64,000 nt of DNA from the NCBI RefSeq assembly GCF_014640315.1, contig NZ_BMGS01000007.1:186001-250000 (forward strand). The letters run 5' to 3'. Positions 11,002-37,937 of this stretch are shown here, one piece after another. How positions within the stretch are numbered: the first letter of the stretch is position 1; each line of letters opens with the position of its first letter. Source of the stretch: Hymenobacter glacieicola (lineage in GTDB: Bacteria > Bacteroidota > Bacteroidia > Cytophagales > Hymenobacteraceae). The position numbers and the translations under genes are program-made. The notes beneath the pieces were generated by a model that ran no database searches, had not been told where the DNA came from, and saw nothing but the letters and a program-made list of their open reading frames with translations.

Positions 11002-11020
11002 GCACTTAGCGAAGCCGAAT

Positions 11021-12271: not shown

Positions 12272-12340
12272 GAGGGAACAGGTTGAATGTGAAACGAAAA
12301 CGAGCGGTTATGCCCCAAGACCTAACGCCCGAGTAATGTA

Positions 12341-12579: not shown

Positions 12580-12641
12580 GTTCTCGATTAATTACATCAG
12601 AACCCTCCTTCTTCCCTCCCACCCGCTACCCACTCTCCTAC

Positions 12642-22106: not shown

Positions 22107-24230
22107 ATGGAAGTGATAGTTACCCGTGAACGGCCGGGGCAACCGGCGGAAGCCAGTGGTTCCCCGGGCTATTTTTTGGAGCAGGAGCGCTTACTGGCGC
22201 TGCAGGCACTGGATATTCTGGATACCGAACCCGAGCCCGAGTTTGATGAGCTGGTAGAACAGGCGGCCCGTTTGTGCGGGACGCCGGTAGCCTGCCTGAG
22301 CTTCCTGGACGAAACCCGGCAGTGGCTGAAGGCCCAAACCGGCAGCTGGCTGCCCGAAATACCGCGCGACCAGTCTTTGTGCGCGCGCACCTTGCTGGCC
22401 AACGACCTGCTGTTGCTGGACCCGGAAAGCGCGCCGGCACTGTTTGCCGCTACCCCCCTCACCTACCACGATACCCCGGTGGCGGCCTACGCTGGCTACC
22501 CCCTACGGACGGGCGAGGGCTACGCGGTGGGCGTGCTGAGCGTAAGTGACGTGGCAAGGCGGGAGTTTAGCCCCGAGCAGCAGCAGTTTCTGCGGCTGCT
22601 GGCCCAGCAGGCCAGCCAGGCCCTGGAGCTGCGCCTGGCCCGGCGCGCCCGGCTGGCGGCGGAGGCGTCGGTGCAGCGGAAGCAGGCGTTTCTGGCCGCC
22701 ATGAGCCACGAAATCCGCACGCCCATTCACGGCATTATGGGGTTAAGCCGGCTGCTGCAGGAAAGCTTTATTACGCCCCAGCAGGAGGAAAACCTGGCCA
22801 TCATCACTTCCACGGCCGAAAACCTGCTCAGTGTTATCAACGACATTCTCGACTTCAGCAAGGTAGAGCTGGGCAAGATGGAGCTGGAGCGGGTGCCGTT
22901 TGACGTGGAAGCAACCGTGCGCGACGCCACCCGCTCCGTGCAGCACATGGCCCAGAAAAAGGGCATTGGCCTGCAAACCATTGTGAAAAGTCCGGCCGGG
23001 CTGCCCACCATAGAAGGCGACCCGCTACGGCTGCGGCAAATTCTGCTCAACCTGCTCACCAATGCCCTGAAGTTCACGGAGGAAGGCCAGATTACGGTTT
23101 CGGTGGAAGTGCAGCACCAGGACGCGGCCCTGGTTCACCTGGAGTTTTGCGTGGACGACACCGGCATTGGCATCAGCATGGACAAGGCCGAGGAGATATT
23201 CCGGGCCTTTGACCAGGCCACCAGCAGCACCGCCCGCCGCTACGGCGGCACGGGGCTGGGGCTAGCCATCTGCCGGAGCCTGATTGAATTGCAGGGCGGC
23301 CGCATCTGGCTGGAAGCCCGGCCGGGGCAGGGTAGCTGCTTCCGCTTCTCGCTGGCCTACCCCACCAGCGCCGCCCGGCCCTACGCCGAAGCCGTGCTGC
23401 CCCCGCTGGCCCCCGGCCTACTACAGGGCCTGCGGGTGCTGCTGGCGGAAGACAACCCCGTTAACAAGCTGCTGGCTACCTCATTACTGCACACCTGGGG
23501 CGTGGAGGTAGCCATTGCAACGGATGGGCAGCAGGCCCTCGATCTGGCCCGCCGCCACCCCTACGACCTGATTCTGATGGATATTCAGATGCCGCTACTC
23601 ACGGGGCTGGAAGCCACGGCCAGCCTGCGCGCTACTCCCAACCCCAACCAGCAAACCCCCATTATAGCCCTCACGGCCAATGCCATGCCGGCCGAGGTGC
23701 AGACCTTCAGCCAGCACGGATTCACAGACTTCCTGATTAAACCCTACCACGAAGCTGACCTGTACCGGCTGCTGGTGCGCACCGCGGGCCGGACGGAGGC
23801 CGCCCCCGACCTGCCCCAGCCCACCTACGACTTTTCGCAACTCGGCCGGCTGGCGCACGATGAGGGCTTCATCCGGAAGATGCAGCAGCTTTTTCTGGAT
23901 ACGGTGCCCGGGCAGCTCCAAGAACTTAAGCGCGCCGTGGGCCACGGCCAATGGACCACGGCAGCCCAGCTGATTCACAGCCTGAAATCAACCTACGGCA
24001 GCATGCAGATGGAGGAAGCAATCCGCTGCCTCAAGCGCCTGGAGCAGGCCCTGCAGCCACCGGTAACGGCCACTCCCCCCCTGATAAGCCTGCTGGAACT
24101 ACTCGGGGCCATTACCAGTCGCACAGTTGAGCTATTTACTCAGCATCTGCGCGCGCCTGCCCCTGAGCAGATGGTTGCCACTCCCGGCCCGCGTCACGAG
24201 CAGCATAGACGTCATACTGCGGGCTTCTGA
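22107..24230 (+). CDS. Hybrid histidine kinase: GAF, HisKA/HATPase, receiver, HPt
   Basis: 707 residues, no membrane segment. A GAF domain lies at about 25-180 (ILDTEPEPEFDELVEQAARL). The H-box is MSHEIRTP with His201. The ATPase shows LLTNALKF (N-box), DDTGIGIS (G1) and GGTGLGLAI (G2). A receiver follows (LLAEDNPVNK, phospho-acceptor Asp492 in LMDIQMP, Lys in FLIKPY) and ends with an HPt domain (His624 in IHSLKS). This is a complete four-step phosphorelay in one soluble chain, lacking only a final response regulator. The single-domain regulator at 24882 is the nearest partner, which would tie it to the exopolysaccharide locus. The input signal is unknown. Confidence 0.93.
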   Translation: MEVIVTRERPGQPAEASGSPGYFLEQERLLALQALDILDTEPEPEFDELVEQAARLCGTPVACLSFLDETRQWLKAQTGSWLPEIPRDQSLCARTLLANDLLLLDPESAPALFAATPLTYHDTPVAAYAGYPLRTGEGYAVGVLSVSDVARREFSPEQQQFLRLLAQQASQALELRLARRARLAAEASVQRKQAFLAAMSHEIRTPIHGIMGLSRLLQESFITPQQEENLAIITSTAENLLSVINDILDFSKVELGKMELERVPFDVEATVRDATRSVQHMAQKKGIGLQTIVKSPAGLPTIEGDPLRLRQILLNLLTNALKFTEEGQITVSVEVQHQDAALVHLEFCVDDTGIGISMDKAEEIFRAFDQATSSTARRYGGTGLGLAICRSLIELQGGRIWLEARPGQGSCFRFSLAYPTSAARPYAEAVLPPLAPGLLQGLRVLLAEDNPVNKLLATSLLHTWGVEVAIATDGQQALDLARRHPYDLILMDIQMPLLTGLEATASLRATPNPNQQTPIIALTANAMPAEVQTFSQHGFTDFLIKPYHEADLYRLLVRTAGRTEAAPDLPQPTYDFSQLGRLAHDEGFIRKMQQLFLDTVPGQLQELKRAVGHGQWTTAAQLIHSLKSTYGSMQMEEAIRCLKRLEQALQPPVTATPPLISLLELLGAITSRTVELFTQHLRAPAPEQMVATPGPRHEQHRRHTAGF

Positions 24231-24881: not shown

Positions 24882-25274
24882 ATGGTAGTACCCAAGAAAC
24901 AGTTGCTCATCGTCGACGATGAGCCCTCCATTCGTCTGATTCTGGAGCACTATTTCTCCAGCGAGTATGATGTGGTGGTGACCTCCAATGGACAGGAGGC
25001 GCTCAACTGGCTGCAGAAAGGCCACCAGGCCGACGCCATTGTGGCTGACTACGAGATGCCCCAGATGGACGGGCTGGAGTTTCTGAAGCGTTTGCGGGCC
25101 CACGCTTCCCACGCCACTACGCCCCTGCTGATGCTGTCGGTAGCCGATGAAAGCAGCAAGAAAATTCTGTGCCTAAAGCAGGGCGCCGACGACTATATCG
25201 TGAAGCCTTTCAACCCGGAGGAGCTGGAAATCAGGATTAAAAATGTGCTGGGCCGCGTGCGGGCCGGCGCCTGA
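24882..25274 (+). CDS. Single-domain response regulator (CheY-like)
   Basis: 130 residues covering one receiver domain: acidic pocket Asp12-Asp13-Glu14, phospho-acceptor Asp56 (VADYEMP), Ser/Thr region LLMLSVAD and Lys108 (YIVKPF). There is no output domain, so it signals by protein contact. It is the first gene of the exopolysaccharide locus (80 bases before the sugar transferase) and the closest regulator to the hybrid kinase upstream, suggesting control of polymer synthesis or export. Confidence 0.92.
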   Translation: MVVPKKQLLIVDDEPSIRLILEHYFSSEYDVVVTSNGQEALNWLQKGHQADAIVADYEMPQMDGLEFLKRLRAHASHATTPLLMLSVADESSKKILCLKQGADDYIVKPFNPEELEIRIKNVLGRVRAGA

Positions 25275-25354
25275 TACCGGCCCTTTTGCTACCGTTCTGT
25301 CCTACCCGAAATTCCCTTTCTGTATTGGTCGACCCCTACCAACACTCTTTGGCT

Positions 25355-26245
25355 ATGAATGCTACCGCGCCTAACCTCTACCCTTCCGGCCCTCCGCCTC
25401 AGCCCCTGCTGCCCAGCTGGCGGCCGCTAACACACCGTAAATCTAGAAAAGCGGCGGCCCGCAAGCGCTCCGCCGCCACCCGCGCCCTGCGCATGCCCCT
25501 GGCCAAGCGGGCCTTCGACATTCTGTTTTCTGCCACTGTTCTGCTGGTTTTGCTTCCCCTGTTTCTGCTGGTAGCCTTGCTGATTAAGCTGGAATCGAAG
25601 GGGCCGGTGCTGTATTACTCCTACCGCGTGGGCACGGGCTACCGCAAGTTTCGCTTCTGGAAATTCCGCTCTATGCGCCAGGATGCCGACCAGCTGCTGG
25701 CCTCGGTGAAAAACCTGAATCAGTACCAGGCTGCGGCCGCTGATGCCGCTCCGGAGCCGGGCGTTTGTGCCTGCCACGCGGGCCAGCAGGGGCCCTGCCA
25801 GAACCAGTTAATCGATAAAAATGGCCACCCGATTTGCGAGAAGCACTACGCCCAGGCCAAAAAAGCGCGGGAGCAGGCCACCTTCATCAAAATTGCCAAC
25901 GACCCGCGCATCACGCGCATTGGGCTGTTCATCCGCAACACCAGCATTGATGAGCTGCCCCAGCTCTTCAACGTGCTGCGCGGGGATATGTCGCTGGTGG
26001 GGAACCGGCCCCTACCCCTGTACGAGGCCGAGAAGCTTACCACCGACCAGTTTGCGACCCGCTTTCTGGCCCCGGCCGGCATTACGGGCCTCTGGCAGGT
26101 AAGCAAGCGCGGCAAGGGCGGCGACATGTCGGCCGAGGAGCGCAAAGCCCTGGACGTGGAGTACGCCACCAACTACTCCTTTCGCAAAGACATTCAGATT
26201 CTGCTCCGGACTTTTCCGGCCCTGCTGCAAAAGGAAAACGTTTGA
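25355..26245 (+). CDS. Initiating sugar transferase (polyprenyl-phosphate glycosyl-1-phosphate transferase) with Cys-rich insertion
   Basis: 296 residues from the ATG at 25355; an upstream open frame back to 25286 reads through spacer. It should start repeat-unit assembly by moving a sugar-1-phosphate onto the lipid carrier at the inner membrane. After a basic tail, one membrane segment (about 54-78) is followed by the family core: WKFRSMRQDAD, DPRITRIG, the catalytic Asp-Glu in TSIDELPQL, SLVGNRPLP and GITGLWQV. Between WKFRSM and the DPRITR part about 60 residues are inserted carrying C138-x-C140-H141, C148, C161 and H164, which look able to bind a metal. The stop overlaps the next start (TGATG). 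Confidence 0.9.
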   Translation: MNATAPNLYPSGPPPQPLLPSWRPLTHRKSRKAAARKRSAATRALRMPLAKRAFDILFSATVLLVLLPLFLLVALLIKLESKGPVLYYSYRVGTGYRKFRFWKFRSMRQDADQLLASVKNLNQYQAAAADAAPEPGVCACHAGQQGPCQNQLIDKNGHPICEKHYAQAKKAREQATFIKIANDPRITRIGLFIRNTSIDELPQLFNVLRGDMSLVGNRPLPLYEAEKLTTDQFATRFLAPAGITGLWQVSKRGKGGDMSAEERKALDVEYATNYSFRKDIQILLRTFPALLQKENV

Positions 26246-27003
26246 TGAAAACACTACTCTGCTGCCTGGCCCTGGCCGCCGGCCCGCTGCTGGCTTGCGC
26301 CCAAACGGGCCCGCCCGCCCCGCCCACCGACACCTGGGAGGAGCGTTTTTTTAAGGCTCCCGAGGCCGTGCTGCCCATTTTGCACCAGGCCGCCATCAGT
26401 CACTCAGCGGGCATTGAGAAGCTGGAGCTGGCCAAGCAGGTAGCCAATGAGGACATTCGGCTGGCCCGGAAGAAGATTCTGAACACCCTGGCCCTGACCT
26501 CGAGCTACAGCTACGGCACGCTGCCTTACTTTGCTACCAACGGCTCCACGGAGCGCATTCAGCAGCTCAACGCTTTTTCGCTGAGCGCGCGGGCCCAGTA
26601 CACGGTAGGCCTGAACATGGCCGTGCCGTTTGAGCTGCTGGCCAACCGCCGCGCTACCGTGCACAAGCAGGAGCTGCTGCTGCAACAAGCGGTGGCGGAG
26701 CGGGCCGTGGGCGAAACGGAAATCCGCCGCCAGGTTATTCTGCTATATCAGGAGCTGGCCCTGGCCCACGCCAACTTGCAGCACCACCAGAATGCCGTGC
26801 AGTCGGCCAGCATCAGCAAGAAGCTGGCGGATAGCAAGTTCCGCAGCGGCGAAATTCAGGTAGACGAGCAGATGGCGGCCACGGAGCTGCACGGCAAGGC
26901 CCTGCTGGCGCAGGCCGAAGCCCGCAACAAGTATCAGACGGCCATGCTGCTGCTGGAAGATTTTCTGGGCACTCCCCTTCATGTATTAATGACCGGCAAA
27001 TGA
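26245..27003 (+). CDS. Half-size TolC-family outer-membrane protein
   Basis: 252 residues from the ATG at 26245, which shares its A with the preceding stop. Signal peptide MKTLLCCLALAAGPLLACA. The mature part has one outer-membrane-efflux repeat: long helix (LPILHQAAISHSAGIEKLELAKQ region), beta-strands around SLSARAQYTVGLNMAVPF, and a second long helical stretch ending in YQTAMLLLEDFLG. Canonical TolC proteins carry two such repeats and are about 430-480 residues. A pore would need twice the subunits. Placed directly before the Wzc-like gene (4-base overlap) and with no Wza in the window, it is the likely outer-membrane exit for the polymer. That role is an inference. Confidence 0.85.
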   Translation: MKTLLCCLALAAGPLLACAQTGPPAPPTDTWEERFFKAPEAVLPILHQAAISHSAGIEKLELAKQVANEDIRLARKKILNTLALTSSYSYGTLPYFATNGSTERIQQLNAFSLSARAQYTVGLNMAVPFELLANRRATVHKQELLLQQAVAERAVGETEIRRQVILLYQELALAHANLQHHQNAVQSASISKKLADSKFRSGEIQVDEQMAATELHGKALLAQAEARNKYQTAMLLLEDFLGTPLHVLMTGK

Positions 27004-29252
27004 CGCTGAAAGACCTCTACCGCCTGTTGCGGCGCCACTGGCTGCTGCTGCTGCTGGTGCCGCTGGTAACCACGGCCTCGGTGTTTTACTTTGGCCGCAA
27101 CCGGGATAAAAAGTATACTTCCGACACGGTCATTTACACCGGCATTGCCTCGGGCTACAAGATAGACGGCGACAACAACGCGGCCGGGGGCGGGTGGAAC
27201 GCCGCTTCCACGGCCTTCGACAACCTGCTGTCCTTGATTACCTCCCGCGACACGCGCGAGGAAGTGTGCCTGCGCCTGCTGGCCCGCCACTTGCTGGAGC
27301 GCAAAGCCAGCGGGGCCGCCGGTGCGGCCCGGCCCCAAACGGCCTCGGCGGCCCCGAGCGGCGTGCTGGCGGCCGTGCAGCGCGTGCTGCTGCCGGCCAA
27401 GCTGGCCACCGCCGACCAGCCCCTGCTGGATTCGCTGGCCGCTACCCTGGCCGGCAGCACCGAGGAGGAAACCCTGGCCAACCTGACGGCCGCTTACCGG
27501 GCCAGCAACACCAACGCCGTCTACAAGCTGTTTTACTCCAAGCACCCGTACTACTCGGAGGCAGCCATGTGGAATATTTCCGCCAACCGCGTCAAGGACA
27601 GCGACCTGCTCCGGATTGAGTACAGCGCCAAGAACCCCCAAATTTGCCGCGAAACCCTGGACATTCTGACCCAGGTGTTTATTCGCAAGCACAAGGAGCT
27701 GTTCGTGGGGCAGAATGAAAACGTCATCGGCTACTTCGATGCCGCTACCCAGAAGGCGTACACCAAGCTGCAGGCCGCCGAGCAGAAGCTGCTGCAGTTT
27801 CACCAGAAGCACAACATCGTCGACTACGACAAGCAGATGATTACCTCCACGGAGGAGCGCCAGCTGACGGCCGACAAGTTCAACGAGTTGGAAATGCAGT
27901 ACGCCGGGGCCAGCTCGGCCCTGAAGTCGACGGAGTCGGCCCTGGGCAAGCGGGGCGTGTCGAACCTGAAAAGCCAGGAGATTCTGCGGCTGCGCAACCG
28001 TTTGGCCGATTTGAACGGTCAGATTTCGGAGGTAGAGCTGCTAAACAAAAGCGCCACCAGCCCCGACGGCGCCGCCCGCCTGGCCAACCTTAACCAGCAG
28101 GTAGCCACCGTCAGCAACAGCCTGGACGAAGCCGTAAGCAGCTACGACGCCGACACCCGCTCCACGCAGGGCGTGGCCGTGAAGGATTTGCTGCAGGATT
28201 ACACCAAGAACGTGCTGCAGGTGGAAGACCTGCGCGGGCAGCTCAGCTCCATGCGCCGGCAGAAGGAAAACTTCACCAGCCAGTACAACAGCCTGGTGCC
28301 GCTGGGGGCGGAAATCCGCAAAATCCGCCGCGAGGTAGAAATAGCCGAGAAAGAGTACATGTCGCAGGTAGAAGGCTTGAAGCAGAGCAAGCTTTCCCAG
28401 CAGAACGTGGAGCTGGCCTCCCAGCTGAAGGTAGTGGACCCGCCGAACCTGCCGGCCACGGCGGGCGGTACCCGGCTGCTGGTGCTGCTGCTGGGTGGCC
28501 TGATTGGGTCCTTCCTGTTTACCGGGGCGGGGGTGGTAGTGGCGGATCTGCTCAACAACTCCCTGCAGAAGCCCACCCTGGCTACCAAAGTGACCAGCTT
28601 CCCGGTGATGGGCATCATCCCGAATACGACCAACCTCAACCAGAAGCAGCTGCTGGACGCCCAGCGGGCCGAGGACCAGCTGGCGCGGCAGCTGCTGCTG
28701 AAGATGCACCAGAAGGACGACTCCACCAAGCCCTTTATGATTGGGGTGCTCAGCAGCCAGAGTGGCGAGGGCAAAACCACCCTGGCTACCTCCCTCACGG
28801 CCAGCCTGAACAACATGAAAATCAAAACCCTGGGCTTGTTTCCGAATGACCACGCCGACCACGCCTGGCTGGAGGGGCATACTTCCTACTACTCGCCCCT
28901 GCAGGGCCTCTCGCAGGGCGTGACGGTAGCCGACCTGGTGGGCACGCGCACCTACAACAATGCCGTCATCATCGTGGAGTTTCCGGCCCTGCTGGAGGCC
29001 ACCTACCCCGCCTCCCTGCTGCAAAGCCTCGACCTGATTCTGGTGGCGGTAAAGGCCACCCGCAGCTGGGAGCAGGCCGACAAAAAGATTTTCGAGAACA
29101 TCCGGAACGTGTCAAAAGCCCCGATTGAGGTAGTACTCAACGGGGTGCTGCCCGAGTACGTGACGGACTTTATCGGGGCCCGGGTGAAATCGAGCACTGG
29201 CAAACGGGCCGGCCTCCCTCCGCGGCCGCTCCAAGGCTTGCTCAACCCCTAG
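27000..29252 (+). CDS. Wzc-like polysaccharide chain-length/export protein with degenerate kinase domain
   Basis: 750 residues. A Wzz-type N-terminus with a first membrane helix (about 12-31) is followed by a long periplasmic coiled-coil part, a second helix (about 483-510), and a cytoplasmic P-loop domain. Walker A is present (SQSGEGKTT, Lys592). The Walker A' position reads TLGLFPNDHADHAW without the usual DxD, and Walker B reads VIIVEFP with Glu660 where Asp is expected. The C-terminus lacks a tyrosine cluster. It may bind nucleotide but probably is not an active BY-kinase. It should set chain length and link the inner membrane to the TolC-like protein, with which it overlaps by 4 bases. 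Confidence 0.88.
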   Translation: MTLKDLYRLLRRHWLLLLLVPLVTTASVFYFGRNRDKKYTSDTVIYTGIASGYKIDGDNNAAGGGWNAASTAFDNLLSLITSRDTREEVCLRLLARHLLERKASGAAGAARPQTASAAPSGVLAAVQRVLLPAKLATADQPLLDSLAATLAGSTEEETLANLTAAYRASNTNAVYKLFYSKHPYYSEAAMWNISANRVKDSDLLRIEYSAKNPQICRETLDILTQVFIRKHKELFVGQNENVIGYFDAATQKAYTKLQAAEQKLLQFHQKHNIVDYDKQMITSTEERQLTADKFNELEMQYAGASSALKSTESALGKRGVSNLKSQEILRLRNRLADLNGQISEVELLNKSATSPDGAARLANLNQQVATVSNSLDEAVSSYDADTRSTQGVAVKDLLQDYTKNVLQVEDLRGQLSSMRRQKENFTSQYNSLVPLGAEIRKIRREVEIAEKEYMSQVEGLKQSKLSQQNVELASQLKVVDPPNLPATAGGTRLLVLLLGGLIGSFLFTGAGVVVADLLNNSLQKPTLATKVTSFPVMGIIPNTTNLNQKQLLDAQRAEDQLARQLLLKMHQKDDSTKPFMIGVLSSQSGEGKTTLATSLTASLNNMKIKTLGLFPNDHADHAWLEGHTSYYSPLQGLSQGVTVADLVGTRTYNNAVIIVEFPALLEATYPASLLQSLDLILVAVKATRSWEQADKKIFENIRNVSKAPIEVVLNGVLPEYVTDFIGARVKSSTGKRAGLPPRPLQGLLNP

Positions 29253-29308
29253 CCTCCCCTTTTCCTGACCCGCGGGCCCGGCCCGCCCTCCAGCCCGCTT
29301 CCTCCATT

Positions 29309-30745
29309 ATGAGTCAATTCGCATCATCAGCCAGCCCAAAAAGCCGCGGGGCGCAGCTCCTGCTGGCGGTGCTGGCGGCCGTGGTGCTGGGCTGGGGTAC
29401 GGCGCAGGCCGGGGTGCTGGTGCCGGCCCTGTTGATTGCGCTGGCGGTGGTGGTGCCGTTTGTTATTATCCTGTTCACTACGCCGCGGGTGGGCATTATT
29501 GCCCTGCTCTGCTACTGCTTCCTGTTCTTCATCATCGACCGGGAGGTAGGCGGGGCGCCCTTTGGGATGGCCATTGATGGGCTGCTGGTGACTACGGCCG
29601 TGGCCGTGCTGGTGCAGCACCGCCGCTTCGACTGGAGCTACATTAAGAACGACCTGGTGCTGCTGACCCTGTTCTGGTTCGGAGTCAACATTCTGGAGCT
29701 GGGCAACCCCTCGGGGGCCAGCCTGATGGGCTGGGTGCAGGAGTTCCGGAGCGCCTCGTTCTACTGGCTGCTCACGGTGCCCCTCTCGCTGCTGCTCTTC
29801 AACCAGAAAAAGGACCTGAACCTGTTTCTGATGCTGCTGATCGGGCTGTCGGTGCTGGGCACGCTCAACGGGCTCAAGCAGCTCTATATCGGCCTCTCGC
29901 CGGGCGAGCAGCACTTTCTGGACGTAGGCAACGCCAAAACCCACCTGCTCTGGGGCAAGCTGCGGGTGTTTTCCTTCTACAGCGACGCGGGCCAGTTCGG
30001 AGCTTCCCAGGCCCACATTGCCCTAGTGGCCCTGATTCTGGGGTTCGGGCCGTTTAAGAAGTGGCAGAAAACCCTGCTGCTGGTGGCGGCCGCCCTGCTG
30101 ATTACGGGCATGTTCATTTCCGGTACCCGCGGGGCGTTGTTTGCCTTGCTGGTCGGCATTGGGGTAGCCCTGCTCATCAGCAAGAACATCAAGGCCCTGG
30201 TGGTGGGCACCATGCTGGCGCTGTCGGCGCTGTACGTGCTCAAGTACACCAACATCGGGGACAGTAACTACAACGTGTACCGCATGCGCACGGCCCTGGA
30301 CCCCCAGGATGCCTCCCTGAACGTGCGCCTCAACAACCAGCTGGTGCTGCGCAACTACCTCGACTCCCACCCCTTCGGGGGCGGCGTGGGCACCATCGGG
30401 GCCTGGGGCATCAAGTACAACCCGGGCAGCTACCTCTCCACCATCCCGCCCGACAGCTACTGGGTGAAGGTGTGGGTGATGTACGGCATCGTGGGCTTTA
30501 TCATCTGGTTTGGCATCATGCTCTACATCGTGGGCAAAGGCTGCGGCATCGTCTGGAACATCCGCGACCCCAAGCTGCGCGTCAAGCTCAACGCCCTGAC
30601 GGCCGGCGCGGCGGGCATCCTCTTCTGCAGCTACGGCAACGAGGTTATCAACTTCATGCCCTCGGCCATCATCGTGTACATCTCCTGGGCCTTCATTTTT
30701 CTGGGGCCCCGGCTGGATTCAAACCCTGAACCTGCACCGCAGTAA
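29309..30745 (+). CDS. O-antigen ligase/Wzy-type polymerase
   Basis: 478 residues, almost entirely hydrophobic, with about ten to twelve membrane helices. The large periplasmic loop near residues 320-390 (YRMRTALDPQDASLNVRL, then NPGSYLSTIPPDSYWVKVWV) is typical of the O-antigen ligase/polymerase superfamily (PF04932). In a Wzx/Wzy-type locus it most likely polymerises the lipid-linked repeat units in the periplasm. Ligase and polymerase cannot be separated by eye. It lies between the chain-length gene and the glycosyltransferase genes. Confidence 0.85.
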   Translation: MSQFASSASPKSRGAQLLLAVLAAVVLGWGTAQAGVLVPALLIALAVVVPFVIILFTTPRVGIIALLCYCFLFFIIDREVGGAPFGMAIDGLLVTTAVAVLVQHRRFDWSYIKNDLVLLTLFWFGVNILELGNPSGASLMGWVQEFRSASFYWLLTVPLSLLLFNQKKDLNLFLMLLIGLSVLGTLNGLKQLYIGLSPGEQHFLDVGNAKTHLLWGKLRVFSFYSDAGQFGASQAHIALVALILGFGPFKKWQKTLLLVAAALLITGMFISGTRGALFALLVGIGVALLISKNIKALVVGTMLALSALYVLKYTNIGDSNYNVYRMRTALDPQDASLNVRLNNQLVLRNYLDSHPFGGGVGTIGAWGIKYNPGSYLSTIPPDSYWVKVWVMYGIVGFIIWFGIMLYIVGKGCGIVWNIRDPKLRVKLNALTAGAAGILFCSYGNEVINFMPSAIIVYISWAFIFLGPRLDSNPEPAPQ

Positions 30746-30752
30746 TCGGCCT

Positions 30753-31655
30753 ATGGCAACGCCCCTGGTATCCATCATTTCCATCAACTACAACCAAGCC
30801 CAGGTAACCTGCGAGATGGTAGCGTCCCTGCGCCAGCTCACGTACCCGGCCGTTGAAATCATTGTCGTGGACAACGCCTCCCCTACTGACGACCCCGGCA
30901 TCATCCGGGAGCAGTTCCCGGAGGTGCAGCTGATTCGGTCCGCCCAGAACCTGGGCTTTGCCGGGGGCAACAACCTGGGCATCCGGCAAGCCCGGGGCAA
31001 ATACATCCTGTTTCTCAACAACGACACGGAGGTAGCGCCCGGCTTTCTGGAGCCTCTGGTGGCCCTGTTCGAAAGCAACCCGGAGGCCGGCATTGCCTCG
31101 CCCAAAATCATCTTCCACGGCTCGGAGGGCATTATTCAGTACGCCGGCTCCCGGGGCATCAACACCTGGACGGGCCGCAGCGTGACCATCGGCCACCTGG
31201 AGCCCGACGCCGGCCAGCACAACACTTCCGGCCCTACCCAGCTCGCCGACGGGGCCGCCATGATGGTGCCCCGCCGCGTGATTGACGAGGTAGGCCTGAT
31301 GCCGGAGGTGTACTTTCTCTACTACGAGGAGCTGGACTACTGCGAAATCATCAAGCGCTGGGGCTACAGCTGCCACTACGTGGCCGAGTCCACTATTTAC
31401 CATAAGGAGTCCATGTCGGTGGGCAAGGCCTCGGTGCTGAAAACCTACTACATGAACCGCAACCGCCTGCTGTTCATCCGCCGCAACTTCACCGGCTGGT
31501 CTTTCTGGACCAGTACCTGCGTGTTTCTGCTGGCGGCCCTGCCCAAGAAAGCCGTGGCCTTTTCCCGCCGCTCGGAGTGGAGCCACCTGCGGGCCCTGGG
31601 CCGCGGGCTGTGGTGGAATCTGCAGCACCTGGGCACTTCTTCCGCTACTACCTAA
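30753..31655 (+). CDS. Family 2 glycosyltransferase (rhamnosyltransferase-like)
   Basis: 300 residues, cytoplasmic GT-A fold. SIISINYNQAQVTCEMV and VDNASPTDDP mark the nucleotide-sugar site, LFLNNDTEV is the DxD-type metal site, and YYEELDYCEIIKRWG is the acceptor/ED region. This wording is that of the group including dTDP-rhamnosyltransferases, but donor and acceptor are unknown. A hydrophobic patch near residue 250 suggests membrane contact. It starts 7 bases after the polymerase gene. Confidence 0.9.
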   Translation: MATPLVSIISINYNQAQVTCEMVASLRQLTYPAVEIIVVDNASPTDDPGIIREQFPEVQLIRSAQNLGFAGGNNLGIRQARGKYILFLNNDTEVAPGFLEPLVALFESNPEAGIASPKIIFHGSEGIIQYAGSRGINTWTGRSVTIGHLEPDAGQHNTSGPTQLADGAAMMVPRRVIDEVGLMPEVYFLYYEELDYCEIIKRWGYSCHYVAESTIYHKESMSVGKASVLKTYYMNRNRLLFIRRNFTGWSFWTSTCVFLLAALPKKAVAFSRRSEWSHLRALGRGLWWNLQHLGTSSATT

Positions 31656-31665
31656 CCCCCGCGCT

Positions 31666-32892
31666 ATGACCTTTTTTACGCTTGTTCTGGATGGGCTGCT
31701 GTGGGTGCTGGGTATCTACCTGCTGCTGAACTGCGCCTACCTGCTGTTCTTTGCCGTGGCCGGGCACCTGCGCCCAGCCTCCCTACCGGCGCTGGCTTCC
31801 TCGCGCCCCCGCCCGGCCCGCGCCATGTGCGTACTGATTCCGGCCTACCGCGAAAACACGGTGGTGCTGGAAACCACCCGCGCCGCCCTGCGCCACGCCT
31901 ACCGCGGCCCGCACACCGTCTGCGTTATTGCCGATGGCTTGCAGCCCGAAACGGTGGTAGCCTTGCGCGAAATGGGCGCCCAGGTGCTGGAAGTGCATTT
32001 CGAGCGTAGCACTAAGGGCAAGGCCCTGCTATACGCCCTGGAAACCCTGCCCCAGCGCACCTTTGAGGTAGCCATGGTCCTGGACGTGGACAACCTCATG
32101 GGCCGGGGCTGCCTGGAAGCAGTGAACGAGGCTTTTGAGGCCGGCTACCAGGTAATACAAACCCACCGCACGGCCAAAAACACCGACTCGGCCTTTGCCC
32201 TGCTCGACGCCTGCAACGAGGAAATCAACAACCACATTTACCGCAAGGGCCACTTTGCGGTGGGCCTCTCGGCGGCCCTCATCGGCTCGGGCATGGCCTT
32301 TGAGTTCGGCTACCTGCGCCAGCTGCTGCAGGGCATCGGTGAAACGGTGGGCGAGGACAAGGAGCTGGACTTCCGCATTGCCCGCGACCAGGAGAAAATC
32401 TGCTACCTCGACAGCGTGTACGTCTACGACGAGAAGGTGGAAAACGCCCAGGTGTTCACCCAGCAGCGCAGCCGCTGGCTGGCCTCGCAGTTCGAGTTCC
32501 TGAAGAAGTACGCCGCCGAGGGGCTGGAACAGCTCCTTGAGCACGACAACTTCGAGTTTTTCAACAAGGTAGTGCAGGCGTTTCTGGTGCCGCGCACCCT
32601 GCTCATTGGCGTGCTCGGGCTGCTGCTGGTGGTGTCCGGGGGCCTGAGCCTGGTGCTGCCCGCCGGGCCCACGCCCTGGTTCTGGGCCGGGCTGCTGGCC
32701 GTATTGGCCCTAACCCTGCTCATCTCCCTACCCGCGCGGCTTTACAACCGGCAGCTGCTCACGGCTGTGGTGCGCCTGCCCTACGCCCTGCTGTGCATGG
32801 TGCTGGCCCTGCTGCGCATCAACCGCTCCAAAACGGCCTTCCTAGCCACGCCGCACCGGGTGCAGGCCCTGGACGCTTCCCTGGACCACTAA
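31666..32892 (+). CDS. Membrane-bound processive-type family 2 glycosyltransferase
   Basis: 408 residues. One N-terminal and about three C-terminal membrane helices flank a GT-A domain with VLDVDNLMGRG (DxD), GEDKELDF (ED) and QQRSRW at 266-271, the QxxRW motif of processive synthases such as cellulose and hyaluronan synthases. It probably adds a sugar at the cytoplasmic face of the inner membrane. Whether it acts repeatedly is not shown. It begins 10 bases after the previous gene, with GCGCT directly before the ATG. Confidence 0.88.
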   Translation: MTFFTLVLDGLLWVLGIYLLLNCAYLLFFAVAGHLRPASLPALASSRPRPARAMCVLIPAYRENTVVLETTRAALRHAYRGPHTVCVIADGLQPETVVALREMGAQVLEVHFERSTKGKALLYALETLPQRTFEVAMVLDVDNLMGRGCLEAVNEAFEAGYQVIQTHRTAKNTDSAFALLDACNEEINNHIYRKGHFAVGLSAALIGSGMAFEFGYLRQLLQGIGETVGEDKELDFRIARDQEKICYLDSVYVYDEKVENAQVFTQQRSRWLASQFEFLKKYAAEGLEQLLEHDNFEFFNKVVQAFLVPRTLLIGVLGLLLVVSGGLSLVLPAGPTPWFWAGLLAVLALTLLISLPARLYNRQLLTAVVRLPYALLCMVLALLRINRSKTAFLATPHRVQALDASLDH

Positions 32893-32906
32893 GCTTCTCC
32901 TGCGCT

Positions 32907-32993
32907 ATGCCTTTCGAACTCATTGCCCTGCCAGCTGCCGCCTGCCTGGTGTTCGGCTTTATCCGGGGCCTGCGGGCCCGCCAGCAGTCCTGA
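32907..32993 (+). CDS. 28-residue mini-protein with one possible membrane helix
   Basis: The frame starts with an ATG at 32907, 14 bases after the stop of the glycosyltransferase gene, and ends with TGA. The product is hydrophobic at the front (LIALPAAACLVFGFI) and basic at the end (RGLRARQQS), as in small single-helix membrane proteins. The base context before the ATG (TGCGCT) resembles that of the gene at 31666 (CGCGCT). It could be a small regulator of the neighbouring membrane enzymes. A chance frame is possible at this length. Confidence 0.4.
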   Translation: MPFELIALPAAACLVFGFIRGLRARQQS

Positions 32994-33090
32994 CCGCTCT
33001 TCCACCCTACCTCCTTCCTTCTACCTCACACCCGCGTTTCCTCCCACGTGACGCCCAACCTCCTCAGCAGCTGTTGAGCTACCCTTTCCC

Positions 33091-34293
33091 ATGATGAGCA
33101 ACGTGTACCTCTATCTGTTCTGGGCGGCGTTTGCCGTGGCGTTTTACACCTACGTGGGCTACGGCCTGGTAGCCTGGGCCCTGGCCCGCCTCCGCCGGCT
33201 GGTGCGCCCCCGCCGCCCCCTGGCCTTCTTCGAGCCCGACGTGACGCTGGTGGTGCCGGCTTACAACGAGGCCGATATTCTCGCCGACAAAGTAGCTAAC
33301 TGCCTGGCTCTGAACTATCCCCGCCAGAAGCTGCGGCTCGTGTTCATTACCGACGGCTCCACCGACAACTCGGCCGAGGTGCTGGCCCGCTACCCCCAGG
33401 TAGAGCACCTGCACTCCCCCTTCCGCGGCGGCAAGTCGCTGGCCGAAAACCGGGCCATGGAGTTTGTGCGCACCCCCTACGTCATCTTCACCGACTGTAA
33501 CTCCTTCCTGAACCCCGAAGCCGTACGCGAAATGGTGAAGCACTACCAGGACCCGCAGGTGGGGGCCGTATCGGGCGAGAAAAAGGTGCTGGCCCACGAC
33601 TCGGCCTCCGGGGCCGGCGAGGGGCTGTACTGGAAGTACGAGTCCTTCCTCAAGCGCTGCGACTCGGAAATCTACTCCCTCATGGGCGCGGCCGGCGAGC
33701 TGGTATCGTTCCGCTCCAACCTGTTCCAGCCCCTGGAAAAGGATACCATCCTCGACGACTTTATTCAGTCGCTGCGCATTGTGGAGAAGGGCTACCGGGT
33801 AGTGTACGAGCCGGCCGCCTACGCCGCCGAAGCTCCCTCGGCTTCGCTGGCCGAGGAAATGAAGCGTAAAATCCGCATTTGCGCCGGCGGCTGGCAGTCG
33901 ATGGTGCGGCTGCGCTCCTTGCTCAACCCGCTGCGCCAACCGCTGGTCACGTTCCTGTACGTGTCGCACCGGGTGCTGCGCTGGAGCCTTACGCCGGTGG
34001 CCCTGGTGCTGCTGCTGGTGCTGGGCGCGGCCCTGGCCGGCCTGCACGGCGGGTTCTACGCGGCCTTTTTTGCGGCCCAGGTGCTGTTCTACGGGCTGGC
34101 CTACCTGGGCTGGCGCGCCGAAAGCCGGGGCCGCAGCCCCAAGCTGCTGCTCGTGCCCCTGTACTTCACCAGCATGAACGTGGCCGTGTTTGCCGGCTTC
34201 CGCCGCTACCTGCGCGGTACGCAGTCGGCGGCCTGGGAGAAGGCCGCCCGCACCCAGCCCCTGGAAGGCAACCTGAGCATCCCGAAAGCCTGA
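33091..34293 (+). CDS. Membrane-bound family 2 glycosyltransferase
   Basis: 400 residues; two ATG codons (33091, 33094) begin the frame. One N-terminal helix (about 4-30) precedes a GT-A domain (VTLVVPAYNEADILADKV, FITDGSTDNS, FTDCNSFLNPEAV) with the Asp pair of ILDDFIQSLRI, and about three C-terminal helices follow. The QxxRW motif of processive enzymes is replaced by RICAGGWQS, so it may add a single residue. It starts 97 bases after the mini-protein, within the same direction and locus. Confidence 0.88.
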   Translation: MMSNVYLYLFWAAFAVAFYTYVGYGLVAWALARLRRLVRPRRPLAFFEPDVTLVVPAYNEADILADKVANCLALNYPRQKLRLVFITDGSTDNSAEVLARYPQVEHLHSPFRGGKSLAENRAMEFVRTPYVIFTDCNSFLNPEAVREMVKHYQDPQVGAVSGEKKVLAHDSASGAGEGLYWKYESFLKRCDSEIYSLMGAAGELVSFRSNLFQPLEKDTILDDFIQSLRIVEKGYRVVYEPAAYAAEAPSASLAEEMKRKIRICAGGWQSMVRLRSLLNPLRQPLVTFLYVSHRVLRWSLTPVALVLLLVLGAALAGLHGGFYAAFFAAQVLFYGLAYLGWRAESRGRSPKLLLVPLYFTSMNVAVFAGFRRYLRGTQSAAWEKAARTQPLEGNLSIPKA

Positions 34294-34354
34294 CCCCGCC
34301 CCGCTCCTTGCCCACCCGCCATTCAGTAGCCGTTCACCCAACTTTCCTTCGGCG

Positions 34355-35236
34355 ATGCGAATAGCCCATTTGATTATGGCCCACAAAGGTCCGGAGCAGA
34401 TTGCCCGCCTGGTAACGGCCATGGCCCACGAGGGCTTCGACTTTTACATTCACCTGGATGCCAAGGCCGACCGCCGGGAGTTTGCCTTTCTGGAGGAGCT
34501 GCCGGGCGTGCGCCTGACTACCACCCGCCTCTACGTGCGCTGGGCCTCCTACCGCTTCACCAAGGCCATTGTGGAGTGCACCCGCGAAATCCTGGCCACG
34601 GGCATCGGCTACGACTTCATCAACCTGATGAGCGCCCAGGACTACCCCATCAAGCCCGCCGACACCATTTACCGCTTTTTCGCCCGCCACCGGGGGCGCT
34701 CCTTTCTCTCGTTTGAGGCCAATGCCGACGATTCGGAGTGGTGGGCCCACGCCATTACCCGCGTGGAGAAGTACCACTCCACTTACTTCCAGTTCAAGGG
34801 CCAGTACGTGCTGCAGTCTACCCTGAACTGGCTGCTGCCCAAGCGCCGGTTTCCGCTGCCCTACACCCTGTACGGGGGCAAAGACGGCTCCTGGTGGACG
34901 CTGAGCCGCACCTGCGCCCAGTACCTGGTTGATTTCCTGGATGATAACCCCGCCCTGCGCCGCTTCACCATGTTTACCTGGGGCTCCGACGAGTTTCTGA
35001 TTTCTACCATCCTGATGAACTCGCCCTACCGCCCCACCATCATCAACAACAACTACCGCTACATCGACTGGAGCCAGGGCGGGGCCAACCCCAAGGTGCT
35101 GACCACCGCCGACTTCGAGCGCCTGCGCGCCAGCCCCCAGCTGTTCGCCCGCAAGTTTGACCCGGCAGTGGACGCTACCGTCCTGGATCTGGTGGACGAG
35201 CAGCTGCTCCTGGCCCCGCTGCAACCCGTTTCCTGA
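34355..35236 (+). CDS. Family 14-like (core-2/I-branching) glycosyltransferase
   Basis: 293 residues. The start (MRIAHLIMAHKGPEQIARLV) and the middle (YDFINLMSAQDYPIK, GGKDGSWWTLSRTC, WGSDEFLISTILMNS) match the beta-1,6-N-acetylglucosaminyltransferase family GT14, known for making branches. This points to a branched repeat unit. The donor sugar is not certain. There is no membrane segment, so it is likely cytoplasmic. Confidence 0.88.
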   Translation: MRIAHLIMAHKGPEQIARLVTAMAHEGFDFYIHLDAKADRREFAFLEELPGVRLTTTRLYVRWASYRFTKAIVECTREILATGIGYDFINLMSAQDYPIKPADTIYRFFARHRGRSFLSFEANADDSEWWAHAITRVEKYHSTYFQFKGQYVLQSTLNWLLPKRRFPLPYTLYGGKDGSWWTLSRTCAQYLVDFLDDNPALRRFTMFTWGSDEFLISTILMNSPYRPTIINNNYRYIDWSQGGANPKVLTTADFERLRASPQLFARKFDPAVDATVLDLVDEQLLLAPLQPVS

Positions 35237-35281
35237 TGCTCCTGGCGGCCGTGGCCGCGCCTACTATTAGCCTGCTTTCCT

Positions 35282-36508
35282 ATGGAGAATACCCTACTCG
35301 GCCGTGATATTGTGGTGGTGGGCCAGCAGCCCTGGGACACCGAAATCGGCAGCAACTGCCGCAACATTGCCCTGGAGTTTGCCCGCCACAACCGGGTGCT
35401 CTACGTGAATGCTCCCCTGGACCGCAACACCGTGCTCCGGCACCGCCGCGCGGGCTGGGTGCAGCAGCGCCTGCGGGTGGTGCGGGGCCAGGAGCAGCCC
35501 CTGCACATGGCCGGCGACAACCTGTGGGTGCTCACCCCGGATGCCGTGATGGAATCAATCAACTGGCTGCCGGCCTCCCCGCTCTACGACCTGCTCAACC
35601 GGCGCAACAACCGCCGCTTTGCCGCCGCCATTGCGCGCGGCATCCAGGCCCTGGGCTTCCGGGAGTTCGTGCTCTTCAACGACAACGACATCTTCCGCAG
35701 CTTCTACCTCAAGGAGCTGCTCCGGCCCGCCGTGAGCGTGTACTACTCCCGCGACTACATGCTGGCCGTGGACTACTGGCGCAAGCACGGCCGCCGCCTG
35801 GAGCCCCAGCTTATTGCCAAAGCCGACGTGTGCGTAGCCAACTCCAGCTACCTGGCCGCTTACTGCCGGCGCTACAACCCCCGCTCCTACTACGTGGGCC
35901 AGGGCTGCGACGTAGCGCCCGCCGCAACCACCGACGCCCCCGCCGACCTGGCGGGCATTCCCGGGCCGCTGATTGGCTACGTGGGGGCCCTGGTGAGCTT
36001 GCGCCTGGATGGGGAGCTGCTGGTGAGCCTGGCCCGGCAGCGCCCCGACTGGAGCCTGGTGCTGGTGGGTCCCGAGGATGAGGCGTTCAAAGCCAGCGCC
36101 TTGCACGGACTGCCCAACGTGTATTTCCTAGGGCCCAAGGCGCCTGCGGAGCTGCCGGCCTACATCCGGGAGTTTGCCGTGTGCCTTAACCCCCAGCTGG
36201 TCAACGACATGACCATCGGCAACTACCCCCGCAAGATTGACGAGTACCTGGCCCTGGGCCGACCCGTGGTGGCTACCCGCACCCAGGCCATGGACATCTT
36301 CGCCGAACACACCTACTTGGCCGACTCGGGCGCCGACTACGGGGCCCTGATTGAGCAGGCCCTCCGGGAAGACTCCGCGGCGCAGCAGCAGCGCCGGGCC
36401 GCCTTTGCCGCTACCCACACCTGGGAAAACAGCGTCTGGCAGATTTACGCGGCCATTGCGGCCGCCGTGGCCCCGGCCGCTGCCCCACTTTCTGTGGCGC
36501 ACGCCTAA
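35282..36508 (+). CDS. GT4-fold glycosyltransferase (TuaH-like)
   Basis: 408 residues, GT-B fold without membrane helices. The N-terminal part (IVVVGQQPWDTEIGSNCRNIA) resembles TuaH-type enzymes of teichuronic acid synthesis. The C-terminal nucleotide domain shows GYVGALVSLRLDGELL, LVLVGPEDE and YPRKIDEYLALGRPVVAT, the usual sugar-nucleotide site. It should transfer a sugar onto the lipid-linked repeat unit. Donor unknown. Confidence 0.85.
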   Translation: MENTLLGRDIVVVGQQPWDTEIGSNCRNIALEFARHNRVLYVNAPLDRNTVLRHRRAGWVQQRLRVVRGQEQPLHMAGDNLWVLTPDAVMESINWLPASPLYDLLNRRNNRRFAAAIARGIQALGFREFVLFNDNDIFRSFYLKELLRPAVSVYYSRDYMLAVDYWRKHGRRLEPQLIAKADVCVANSSYLAAYCRRYNPRSYYVGQGCDVAPAATTDAPADLAGIPGPLIGYVGALVSLRLDGELLVSLARQRPDWSLVLVGPEDEAFKASALHGLPNVYFLGPKAPAELPAYIREFAVCLNPQLVNDMTIGNYPRKIDEYLALGRPVVATRTQAMDIFAEHTYLADSGADYGALIEQALREDSAAQQQRRAAFAATHTWENSVWQIYAAIAAAVAPAAAPLSVAHA

Positions 36509-36587
36509 GCGCTGGCCCCGCGCACTCCCCCACCGCTCCGTTGCCCCGCCGCTCCTTCTATTCCCACCATTTTTTACCCGGTAGCTG

Positions 36588-37937
36588 ATGCTCGCCTTGT
36601 TTAAAAACCGACACATCTTATCCTTAACCGGGAACGGCGTGATGGCCGTGTTCAGCATCCTCACGTACAGCATTCTGTACCGCTTCCTGCCCGAGACGGA
36701 CATGGGCAACTGGGTGTTTTTTCAGTTTGCCTTTCTGCTGCTCGACACCTTCCGCACGGGCCTGCTGCAAACCCCGCTCATTAAGTTTTACGCCGGCGCC
36801 GACCTGGCCCGTCAGACCACCGTGGCCGGCTCCTCGTGGTTTATTGGCCTGCTGGTGACGGGCGGCTTCGTGCTGCTCAACCTGCTGGCCTGGCCCCTGG
36901 CGGCCCACACCTCCGACGCGGGCGTGCTGCTGCTGCTCACCTACTTCGGCATCAGCCTGGTTGTGACTTTGCCCTTCAACGTGGCCGTGTGGCTCCTACA
37001 GGCCCAGCAGCGCTTCGATGCCATCCTGACCATCCGGCTGCTCAACCAGGGCTCGTTTATTCTGCTGACGGTGCTGCTGTACCTGCTGAACAAAATCAAC
37101 CTGCCGGGCATCGTGTACTCCTTTCTGGCCAGCTCCCTGCTCACCAGCGTGGTAGCCCTGGTCATGGGCTGGGCCCGGCTGGGGGCGCTGCGCCACAAAA
37201 CCCGGGCGTGCGTGGCCGAGGTATTCCACTTCGGCAAGTTCAGCTTCGGCACGTTCCTGTGCGCTACCCTGCTGCGCAGCTCCGATACCTTCATCATCAA
37301 GTTCATGCTCGGGCCGGCCGCCCTGGCCGTATACAACCTGCCCCAGCGCCTGCTCGAAATCATTGAGATTCCCCTGCGCAGCGGCCTGGCCACGGCCATG
37401 CCCGATATGTCGGCGGCCGTGAACCGCAAGCGCCACGACGAGGTAGCCCACACCCTGAAAAAGTACGCCGGCTCCCTGACCCTGCTCTTCATCCCGATTA
37501 TGCTGGGCGTGCTGGTGTTTGCCGACGTGATTGTGCTGGCCATCGGGGGCTCGAAGTACGTGCACACCGAAGCGGCCAACCTCTACCGCATCATGATTGT
37601 GTGCGCCCTGCTGTTTCCCATCGAGCGGTTTTTGGGCGTAACCCTGGACATCATCAACAAGCCCCAGCTCAACCTGATCAAGGTGCTCATTGCCCTGGCC
37701 ATCAACACCACCGCCGACATCCTGTGCATCAAGTTTTCGGGTAGCATTTACGGGGCGGCGGTGGCCTCGGGCTTTACCCTGGTGGCCAGCCTGGGCTACG
37801 GCTACTGGGTGCTGAACAAGTACCTGCCCCTGCACTACCAGGATACGTTTCCGCTGGCCCTGGCCGAGTTTCGGAGCCGGCTGGCGCTGCTCTTTCAAAA
37901 GGTGAAGCTCATCACGCACCGCAACCCTACGTTATGA
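36588..37937 (+). CDS. Wzx-type oligosaccharide flippase
   Basis: 449 residues with about 12 to 14 membrane helices, matching the MOP superfamily polysaccharide transporters. YSILYRFLPETDMGNWVFFQF at the front, the middle KFSFGTFLCATLLRSSDTFIIK and the later LGVTLDIINKPQLNLIKV are typical. It should move the lipid-linked repeat unit to the periplasmic face, where the polymerase at 29309 acts. The last four bases overlap the start of the next gene (ATGA). Confidence 0.9.
   Translation: MLALFKNRHILSLTGNGVMAVFSILTYSILYRFLPETDMGNWVFFQFAFLLLDTFRTGLLQTPLIKFYAGADLARQTTVAGSSWFIGLLVTGGFVLLNLLAWPLAAHTSDAGVLLLLTYFGISLVVTLPFNVAVWLLQAQQRFDAILTIRLLNQGSFILLTVLLYLLNKINLPGIVYSFLASSLLTSVVALVMGWARLGALRHKTRACVAEVFHFGKFSFGTFLCATLLRSSDTFIIKFMLGPAALAVYNLPQRLLEIIEIPLRSGLATAMPDMSAAVNRKRHDEVAHTLKKYAGSLTLLFIPIMLGVLVFADVIVLAIGGSKYVHTEAANLYRIMIVCALLFPIERFLGVTLDIINKPQLNLIKVLIALAINTTADILCIKFSGSIYGAAVASGFTLVASLGYGYWVLNKYLPLHYQDTFPLALAEFRSRLALLFQKVKLITHRNPTL

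Follow-up and report, generated by a model that had tools for sequence, protein, structure and literature searches.

A half-size TolC-like protein (hOEP) and the Wzc-like protein encoded directly downstream of it (WzcL) probably belong to a Wzx/Wzy-type exporter in which the outer-membrane exit is formed, without an outer-membrane polysaccharide export (OPX) protein, by identical TolC-like subunits of one repeat each, arranged in a ring on a Wzc of pseudokinase type. The two genes lie in a polysaccharide cluster of Hymenobacter glacieicola (24882-39022, plus strand, from open reading frame (ORF) calls and Pfam), within a 64,000-nucleotide stretch of assembly GCF_014640315.1 (contig NZ_BMGS01000007.1, 186,001-250,000; genome 5.04 Mb, 30 contigs) that is referred to as the window. 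Gene-level evidence makes a distinct exporter well supported genetically: the gene arrangement, the single repeat, the conserved pairing and the lack of a detectable Wza in the locus were observed directly, and alignments and trees show a separate co-polymerase clade, loss of kinase motifs and conserved amphipathic strands. An earlier annotation made from the letters of this DNA alone (the sequence-only reading) had set the TolC-like protein in the place of Wza beside the Wzc-like protein, an assignment now supported by the pairing of the two in 163 of 171 loci fetched for comparison. Its broader proposal of an exporter is partly supported, in that the one-repeat protein, the pairing and the missing locus Wza all hold; the pore with a doubled number of subunits, its gating by the Wzc-like protein and export itself we infer. 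The core genes, and the motifs within them on which the argument turns, are as follows.

24882..25274, plus strand: stand-alone receiver domain, response regulator, 130 residues, heading the conserved block (Pfam, 5.7e-28)
25355..26245, plus strand: polyprenyl-phosphate sugar-1-phosphate transferase, the initiating enzyme (Pfam Bac_transf, 2.4e-59)
26245..27003, plus strand: hOEP, 252 residues, one OEP repeat, putative outer-membrane exit subunit (Pfam OEP, 1.8e-16)
26488..26514, plus strand: hOEP residues 82-90, first predicted transmembrane beta strand (model; alternation in 141 homologues)
26593..26619, plus strand: hOEP residues 117-125, second predicted transmembrane beta strand (model; alternation in 141 homologues)
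26839..26862, plus strand: hOEP residues 199-206, F-x-x-G turn between the long helices (alignment, model)
27000..29252, plus strand: WzcL, 750 residues, polysaccharide co-polymerase with a degenerate tyrosine-kinase domain (Pfam Wzz, 2.4e-6)
28746..28778, plus strand: WzcL residues 583-593, retained P-loop VLSSQSGEGKT (alignment)
28977..28979, plus strand: WzcL Glu660, at the position of the Walker B Asp of Wza-linked Wzc (alignment)

hOEP contains exactly one OEP repeat (residues 48-243; 60.9 bits against a Pfam cut-off of 22), as the sequence-only reading had stated for this 252-residue protein, and the ORF calls uphold the overlaps that it gave, one base between the sugar transferase and hOEP genes and four between those of hOEP and WzcL. 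The hOEP start is the ATG at 26245, with a TTG 3 bases upstream of it, and a signal-peptide-like start is kept in most of the 33 family rows. The OEP cut-off was passed also by 8/8 diverse relatives (from loci L098, L127, L138, L156, L199, L220, L224, and L230; L-numbers designate loci fetched for comparison and G-numbers genomes), and each of 163 paired ORFs gave one profile match. Across the H. glacieicola genome the OEP profile returned 18 matches, representing eight two-repeat proteins, hOEP and one weak match under the cut-off. With this profile no second half-size OEP protein was found that could complete hOEP, since the other matches are two-repeat proteins or fall below the cut-off. 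In a tree of 25 half-size rows together with both repeats of the eight full-size OEPs of H. glacieicola, the hOEPs form one clade (support 97/90) apart from both full-size repeats. The half repeat groups with neither the N-terminal nor the C-terminal repeats, and the branch that places it (85/76) includes a long-branched C repeat (C2b_C); the half state may be either ancestral or derived. That hOEP is a decaying fragment of a full-size TolC is unlikely given the single supported clade, the signal-peptide-like start kept in most family rows and the conservation of both strands.

The AlphaFold monomer of hOEP (mean pLDDT 80.9, pTM 0.61) has helices at residues 39-53, 55-80, 135-200 (66 residues) and 206-241, with low confidence at 19-27 and 95-110 (pLDDT < 50 in the latter). 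This order of helices and strands is that of a TolC repeat, and in the profile alignment the F-x-x-G turn falls on the equivalent turn in each of the two TolC repeats. Among 141 aligned homologues, hydrophobic or aromatic residues mostly occupy positions 82, 84, 88, 90, 119, 121, 123, 125, 127, and 129, and the intervening positions of both strands are mostly small or polar; as read from this alignment, the strands alternate in the way that beta barrels facing lipid do. Together, the monomer model and the conserved amphipathic strands resemble one half of a TolC protomer. When the hOEP profile was compared with solved proteins the best match was TolC, through its second repeat (whole-chain E 1.2e-10; both repeats match), and TolC-family chains rank first in a Foldseek search with the hOEP model (4.5e-5).

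WzcL has the fold of Wzc. Its Wzz domain scores 28.2 bits against a Pfam cut-off of 25.5, its AlphaFold model (pLDDT 76.2, pTM 0.41) places two transmembrane helices at 14-33 and 491-518, and its best full-length fold match is Wzc (7nib_E; Z 18.6, 376 aligned residues, rmsd 4.2). The WzcL profile also matches Wzc and PslE (1.5e-16), the latter, whose partner PslD is an OPX protein, being the nearest solved relative by sequence; PslE is not among the 50 fold matches listed for WzcL, an absence that is uninformative given that the sequence search finds it. WzcL is 87% identical to its counterparts in Hymenobacter latericoloratus and Hymenobacter sp. HSC-4F20, and of the three matches to a WzcL search in the H. 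glacieicola genome it is the one that adjoins hOEP.

Overlooked by the sequence-only reading was the degeneracy of the WzcL kinase site, which varies in step with the outer-membrane partner. The P-loop Lys is common to all groups, being present in 145/150 hOEP-adjacent co-polymerases, 10/10 that lie more loosely in hOEP loci and 22/23 that are linked to Wza. The Walker B position is Glu in 144/150 hOEP-adjacent proteins (Asp in 1/150) and in 10/10 of the looser ones, as against Asp in 21/23 and Lys in 2/23 Wza-linked proteins (Glu in 0/23). At least four Tyr occur among the last 30 residues in 17/23 Wza-linked co-polymerases and in 0/150 and 0/10 of the two hOEP-linked groups, with none at all in the WzcL of the window; among the rows listed, Walker A' is intact in 4/4 Wza-linked and 0/17 readable main-clade hOEP-linked sequences. 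The NCBIfam tyrosine autokinase model TIGR01007 is passed by both Wza-linked Wzc proteins of H. glacieicola and gives no match to WzcL. Because Walker A', the Walker B Asp and the tyrosine tail are lost and the P-loop is kept, and because TIGR01007 agrees, WzcL is probably a pseudokinase, though one that may retain ATP binding. A long periplasmic arm was considered as a further mark of the partner and rejected: the WzcL profile is approximately 93 residues longer than E. coli Wzc in the stretch that holds the Wzc-Wza contact, but the alignment with PslE runs through this stretch, and a similar length is seen in four Wzc proteins of Bacteroidota that are linked to Wza.

Pairing was assessed with a strict script that requires hOEP and WzcL to be adjacent on one strand. 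The 171 loci comprise 33 from a family sample of 120 genomes (a broken copy, L092, included), 60 from the order list (L098-L157) and 78 from named genomes; the order sample (291 genomes) and a phylum sample (345) both consist partly of family genomes. An hOEP match of any kind was obtained in 47 of the 120 family genomes and a WzcL homologue adjoins it in 33, the remaining 14 having weak hOEP matches only (E 1e-5 or worse) in full-size or longer ORFs. Receiver, sugar transferase, hOEP and WzcL follow in this order on one strand in 33/33 family loci (32 fetched, without L092, plus the window) and constitute the core common to them. A 33-row hOEP alignment at 1e-6 matched 86/291 order and 72/345 phylum genomes, many through full-size OEPs only; in the order loci with half-size matches, WzcL is directly downstream in 55/60. 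The named genomes, through which alone phyla beyond Bacteroidota were sampled, were scanned with the WzcL alignment by itself, and the best 80 of 120 relatives yielded 78 loci. Just upstream of WzcL in 77 of these is a single-repeat OEP, the other locus (L168) starting at a contig end; they belong to Hymenobacter, Pontibacter, Rufibacter, Sabulibacter, Emticicia, Limnovirga, Flavobacterium, Chitinophaga, and many uncultured Bacteroidota. Counting only distinct loci (23 named loci repeat family loci), 140 of 148 are adjacent, and the overlap between hOEP and WzcL is exactly 4 bases in 88 of the 163 pairs. Chance or an annotation artefact was rejected as the source of the single repeat and of the pairing, given the Pfam matches for the former and the count of 163/171 for the latter.

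No Wza was detected in these loci. No Poly_export (Wza) match was found by Pfam among 19 cluster and flanking ORFs, or by genome search on the window's contig, in keeping with the claim of the sequence-only reading that the locus encodes none. That reading had also proposed counting how often a Wza gene accompanies the pair elsewhere: the pairing is conserved, and a Wza profile built from 24 proteins detected Wza in 0/171 pair loci (the 78 named loci included) and in 0/20 loci of a second, more distant batch (L276-L295), 191 fetched loci in all. Applied to L256-L275, Wza loci outside the profile that served as a control, it found 20/20; a co-polymerase adjoins Wza in 19 of these (none at L263) and hOEP is present in 0/20. 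Wza and hOEP are thus mutually exclusive within a locus in this sample. In the H. glacieicola genome Poly_export matches two genes, one on contig 2 and one on contig 1, each directly upstream of its own Wzc-type gene (L094, Wza 9447-10337 and Wzc 10391-12784; L095, Wza 9735-10676 and Wzc 10740-13196). It constitutes a natural experiment, in which the Wza-side co-polymerases keep the kinase motifs and the half-TolC-side one has lost them.

The division between the two kinds of locus extends to the phylogeny of the co-polymerases. In a tree made by a quick method from 59 rows (26 of the 150 hOEP-adjacent proteins, 10 from hOEP loci that fail the strict test and 23 Wza-adjacent ones), a single branch with SH-aLRT support of 100 splits the 23 Wza-linked from the 36 hOEP-linked sequences. 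Within the hOEP tree, L138, L152, L153, L156, and L157 form a side branch (100/99), and the co-polymerases of L138, L152, L156, and L157 likewise group together, with those of L155, L285, L286, L292, and L293 (99). Such matching side branches in the two trees are what co-inheritance of a working pair would predict.

In the exporter as we picture it, each hOEP subunit would supply a pair of transmembrane strands plus the helices found in half of a TolC protomer, such that six subunits would give the 12-strand barrel of TolC and eight a 16-strand barrel; their number need not be TolC's three, and eight would match an octameric co-polymerase. At the tips of its periplasmic helices the ring would meet the helical arms of WzcL, an inner-membrane protein, much as Wza and Wzc meet in E. 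coli, and the polysaccharide made by Wzy would pass directly into the channel so formed. Since the catalytic motifs and the tyrosine tail are lost, the assembly cycle of WzcL is probably not run by a Wzc/Wzb phosphorylation switch. TolC closes its entrance by means of only one of its two repeats, a mechanism that could not apply unchanged to a ring in which all subunits are equal. A more ambitious view, which we put forward tentatively and regard as possible rather than probable, is that the pair exemplifies a further kind of translocon, in which single-repeat TolC subunits form a homo-oligomer, perhaps of eight so as to match an octameric Wzc-type ring (16 strands, with room for a polymer), under phosphorylation-independent control by a pseudokinase, and possibly a relic of TolC from before its duplication.

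Several observations weigh against the proposed exporter. Adjacency fails in 8/171 loci (L092, L138, L152, L153, L156, L157, L168, and L218); the broken copy in L092, the contig end in L168 and the choice of start codon in L218 explain three of these, leaving as true exceptions L138 (reversed order), L152, L156, and L157 (WzcL at another place within the locus) and L153, where no WzcL was seen. Among L276-L295, 16 of which are from the phylum list and 4 from the order list (L276 probably duplicates L198), the pair is adjacent in only 12/20, and a co-polymerase is present somewhere in the fetched stretch in 18/20 (none in L277 and L294). The kinase marks are imperfect, 2/23 Wza-linked proteins having Lys at Walker B and 6/23 fewer than four tail tyrosines, and the long periplasmic arm of WzcL is present too in Wza-linked Wzc of the same phylum. 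In the VIA fold list for hOEP, OprM (Z 10.5 over 199 residues) stands level with adaptor hairpins (Z up to 11.6, 76-78 residues) and F-BAR proteins (up to 10.9), and Klebsiella TolC has 9.3 over 190. By itself such a fold match is weak, helical proteins reaching such Z by chance, and the placement of hOEP in the TolC family is founded on sequence rather than fold. Residue coupling between hOEP and WzcL (141 sequences, effective 89) was unusable and was not used: inter-protein scores were far above those of three shuffles, but the top pairs are unlike contacts and shared ancestry explains them equally.

The remaining difficulty is that Wza is encoded somewhere in 33/33 pair genomes, 74/74 genomes of another test and 120/120 of the family sample, no Wza-free genome being found in these sets, so that Wza could act in trans. 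The polymer might then leave through a Wza encoded elsewhere, with hOEP as an accessory that adjusts docking or sealing. The sequence-only reading had itself recognised that a distant Wza needed for this polymer would count against it, and homologues do exist, but in 23 of 24 Wza loci inspected (L094-L097, L256-L275) the Wza adjoins a co-polymerase of its own, and 0/24 have hOEP. A single Wza is all that 8/33 pair genomes possess, and in one of them (G031) it comes with its own 832-residue Wzc (L096). The Wza closest to an intact pair are 16 kb (G009) and 23 kb (G094) away, and in G065 the distance to the broken copy is 15 kb. Taken with the separate clade of the hOEP-linked co-polymerases, these findings make exit through a distant Wza improbable.

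Somewhat less probable still is that hOEP forms no pore and is an outer-membrane-anchored helical adaptor joining WzcL to an unrelated barrel, in the manner of the short OPX proteins of Myxococcus that act with 18-strand barrels. Each subunit has only two strands, which suits this idea, and a TonB-dependent receptor gene lies approximately 8 kb upstream on the opposite strand (14399-16948), though nothing ties it to the cluster. The two amphipathic strands are nonetheless conserved in 141 homologues, as a lipid-facing ring would need; Pfam recognises no other outer-membrane barrel within 24882-39022, and the core shared by the family loci is confined to receiver, sugar transferase, hOEP and WzcL. 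That hOEP serves the efflux of small molecules or proteins and lies in this operon by coincidence is very improbable, for although the OEP family is known chiefly from efflux and type I secretion, the Pfam matches of the cluster proteins include no adaptor (HlyD or membrane fusion protein), resistance-nodulation-division pump or ATP-binding cassette exporter, and the link to WzcL holds in 163/171 fetched loci.

The genes for the proposed single-repeat ring and for WzcL, to return to the preferred reading, are embedded in a cluster that holds together an initiating sugar transferase, Wzx, Wzy and glycosyltransferases, the components by which a Wzx/Wzy-dependent pathway is recognised (Pfam). The remaining features of the cluster, with the kinase upstream of it, are:

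22107..24230, plus strand: hybrid histidine kinase (GAF, HisKA, HATPase, receiver, Hpt; Pfam), upstream of the cluster
29309..30745, plus strand: Wzy-type polymerase or O-antigen-ligase-like membrane protein (Pfam Wzy_C, 3e-11)
30753..31655, plus strand: family 2 glycosyltransferase (Pfam, 1.6e-27)
31666..32892, plus strand: family 2-like glycosyltransferase (Pfam, 1.1e-22)
33091..34293, plus strand: family 2 glycosyltransferase (Pfam, 3.7e-20)
34355..35236, plus strand: Core-2/I-branching-type glycosyltransferase (Pfam, 5.1e-24)
35282..36508, plus strand: family 1 glycosyltransferase (Pfam, 8.4e-12)
36588..37937, plus strand: Wzx-type flippase (Pfam Polysacc_synt_3, 3.5e-17)
37934..39022, plus strand: putative glycosyltransferase with a D-x-D motif (own reading of the sequence, without a family match)

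The Wzy_C domain occurs in ligases as well as polymerases. A relative of the hybrid kinase sits at the same upstream place in most family loci and, with the receiver at the head of the block, suggests two-component control of the cluster; in one family locus (L093) Wzx precedes Wzy. The sugar transferase ORF is open from a TTG at 25286, and the protein matches TIGR03025 (NCBIfam) at 9.3e-74, yet under that model's cut-off; a Cys-rich insert in it (C-x-C...C...C) was rejected as a family feature, being present in only 3/33 members. A minus-strand ORF at 33079-34422, opposite the glycosyltransferase at 33091-34293, has no Pfam match and looks like an antisense shadow.

A number of variants of the two proteins were seen. 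G065, in addition to its intact block, has a second, broken receiver-sugar transferase-hOEP-WzcL block (L092, G065:C67). At L138:9610-10746 a half-size OEP is fused to a C-terminal FKBP-type prolyl isomerase (2.1e-26), with WzcL upstream and not downstream. In two Saprospiraceae metagenome-assembled genomes hOEP is in frame with an upstream acyltransferase (L220:6103-8001 and L223:626-2527, ORFs of 633 residues); the L220 ORF matches Acyl_transf_3 at 4.4e-35 and OEP at 1.9e-9 (Pfam), and a fusion or an internal start are both possible. The only plasmid record with an hOEP relative is that of Hymenobacter yonginensis (NZ_CP115397.1:139316-139954; 33.5% identity over 86%, annotated as a TolC family protein). 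WzcL reaches about 840-980 residues in some Bacteroidales and other metagenome-assembled Bacteroidota (L230:8001-10736; also L201, L217, L226, and L229), and that of L230 has a peptidoglycan-binding LysM domain (3.5e-6) in its periplasmic part, roughly where E. coli Wzc has its jellyroll domain.

An exporter with a different outer-membrane part thus appears to be widespread in Bacteroidota, by an export route that we did not find described: among the papers listed in searches of open-licence PubMed Central literature, judged by titles and abstract beginnings, none described a TolC-like/Wzc-like pair or a single-repeat TolC, nor a pseudokinase co-polymerase with a half-TolC partner. If the proposal is correct, the pair of half-TolC and pseudokinase Wzc adds another route for polymers across the outer membrane, the TolC fold can work as single repeats with the partner setting the symmetry of the channel, and the means by which many Bacteroidota may export matrix polymer would be explained.

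In comparison with known systems, hOEP resembles TolC and other outer-membrane factors (PF02321) in having one complete OEP repeat, two amphipathic strands and long helices. It differs from TolC in carrying one repeat per chain instead of two, in a locus without a recognised adaptor or pump, and in having a co-polymerase as its partner; from full-size OEPs it differs in clustering apart from both repeats of the eight found in H. glacieicola. The outer-membrane auxiliary (OMA) proteins of alpha-proteobacteria, which we take to be Wza-type, are an earlier hint that polysaccharide export and TolC-type efflux share parts. In the portion of the source available these proteins carry an adaptor-like helical region (PMC2850547); there a Wza-type protein would bear adaptor-like helices, whereas in the hOEP locus a TolC-type protein replaces Wza.

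WzcL shares with the Wza-Wzc system (an OPX protein with a class 2a polysaccharide co-polymerase, PCP-2a) the Wzc fold, the Wzz domain, two transmembrane helices and a Wzx/Wzy-type cluster, but the hOEP locus is without OPX and WzcL is without Walker A', the Walker B Asp and the tyrosine tail. In E. coli, octameric Wza and Wzc form a single envelope-spanning channel, and Wzc residues 332, 334, 335, and 338 were mutated as the Wza interface, according to the part of that report consulted (PMC12881504). PslE of Pseudomonas aeruginosa (PDB 9v75 and 9v6l, eight chains per entry) aligns to WzcL profile positions 170-587 at 1.5e-16; in the aligned PDB sequences its P-loop Lys is replaced by Val and its Walker B Asp remains, opposite to the situation in WzcL. 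Degenerate kinases among PCP-2 systems have precedents in Myxococcus EcpK/EpsV and Caulobacter HfsB/HfsA, bacterial tyrosine (BY) pseudokinase systems that the accessible text describes as proposed to be phosphorylation-independent, with one-chain versions in some species (PMC12004946). By the criteria for BY-pseudokinases WzcL keeps the kinase fold, has Walker A' and B changed and retains the P-loop (Lys in 145/150), whereas EcpK is described there as without all Walker motifs (PMC12004946). The exopolysaccharide pathway of EpsV uses the OPX protein EpsY (PMC9601211), and EpsY with EpsX forms a composite OPX/beta-barrel translocon of a Wzx/Wzy pathway in which the barrel spans the outer membrane (PMC9601211; PMC9603273, as excerpted). 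Large sugar polymers are said in the excerpted account to cross the outer membrane by three routes, each relying on an OPX protein or a single-chain barrel (PMC9601211). Unlike the hOEP system, EpsY/EpsX, as described in those excerpts, needs an OPX protein, and its barrel is one 18-strand chain, where that of hOEP would be an oligomer of two-strand subunits.

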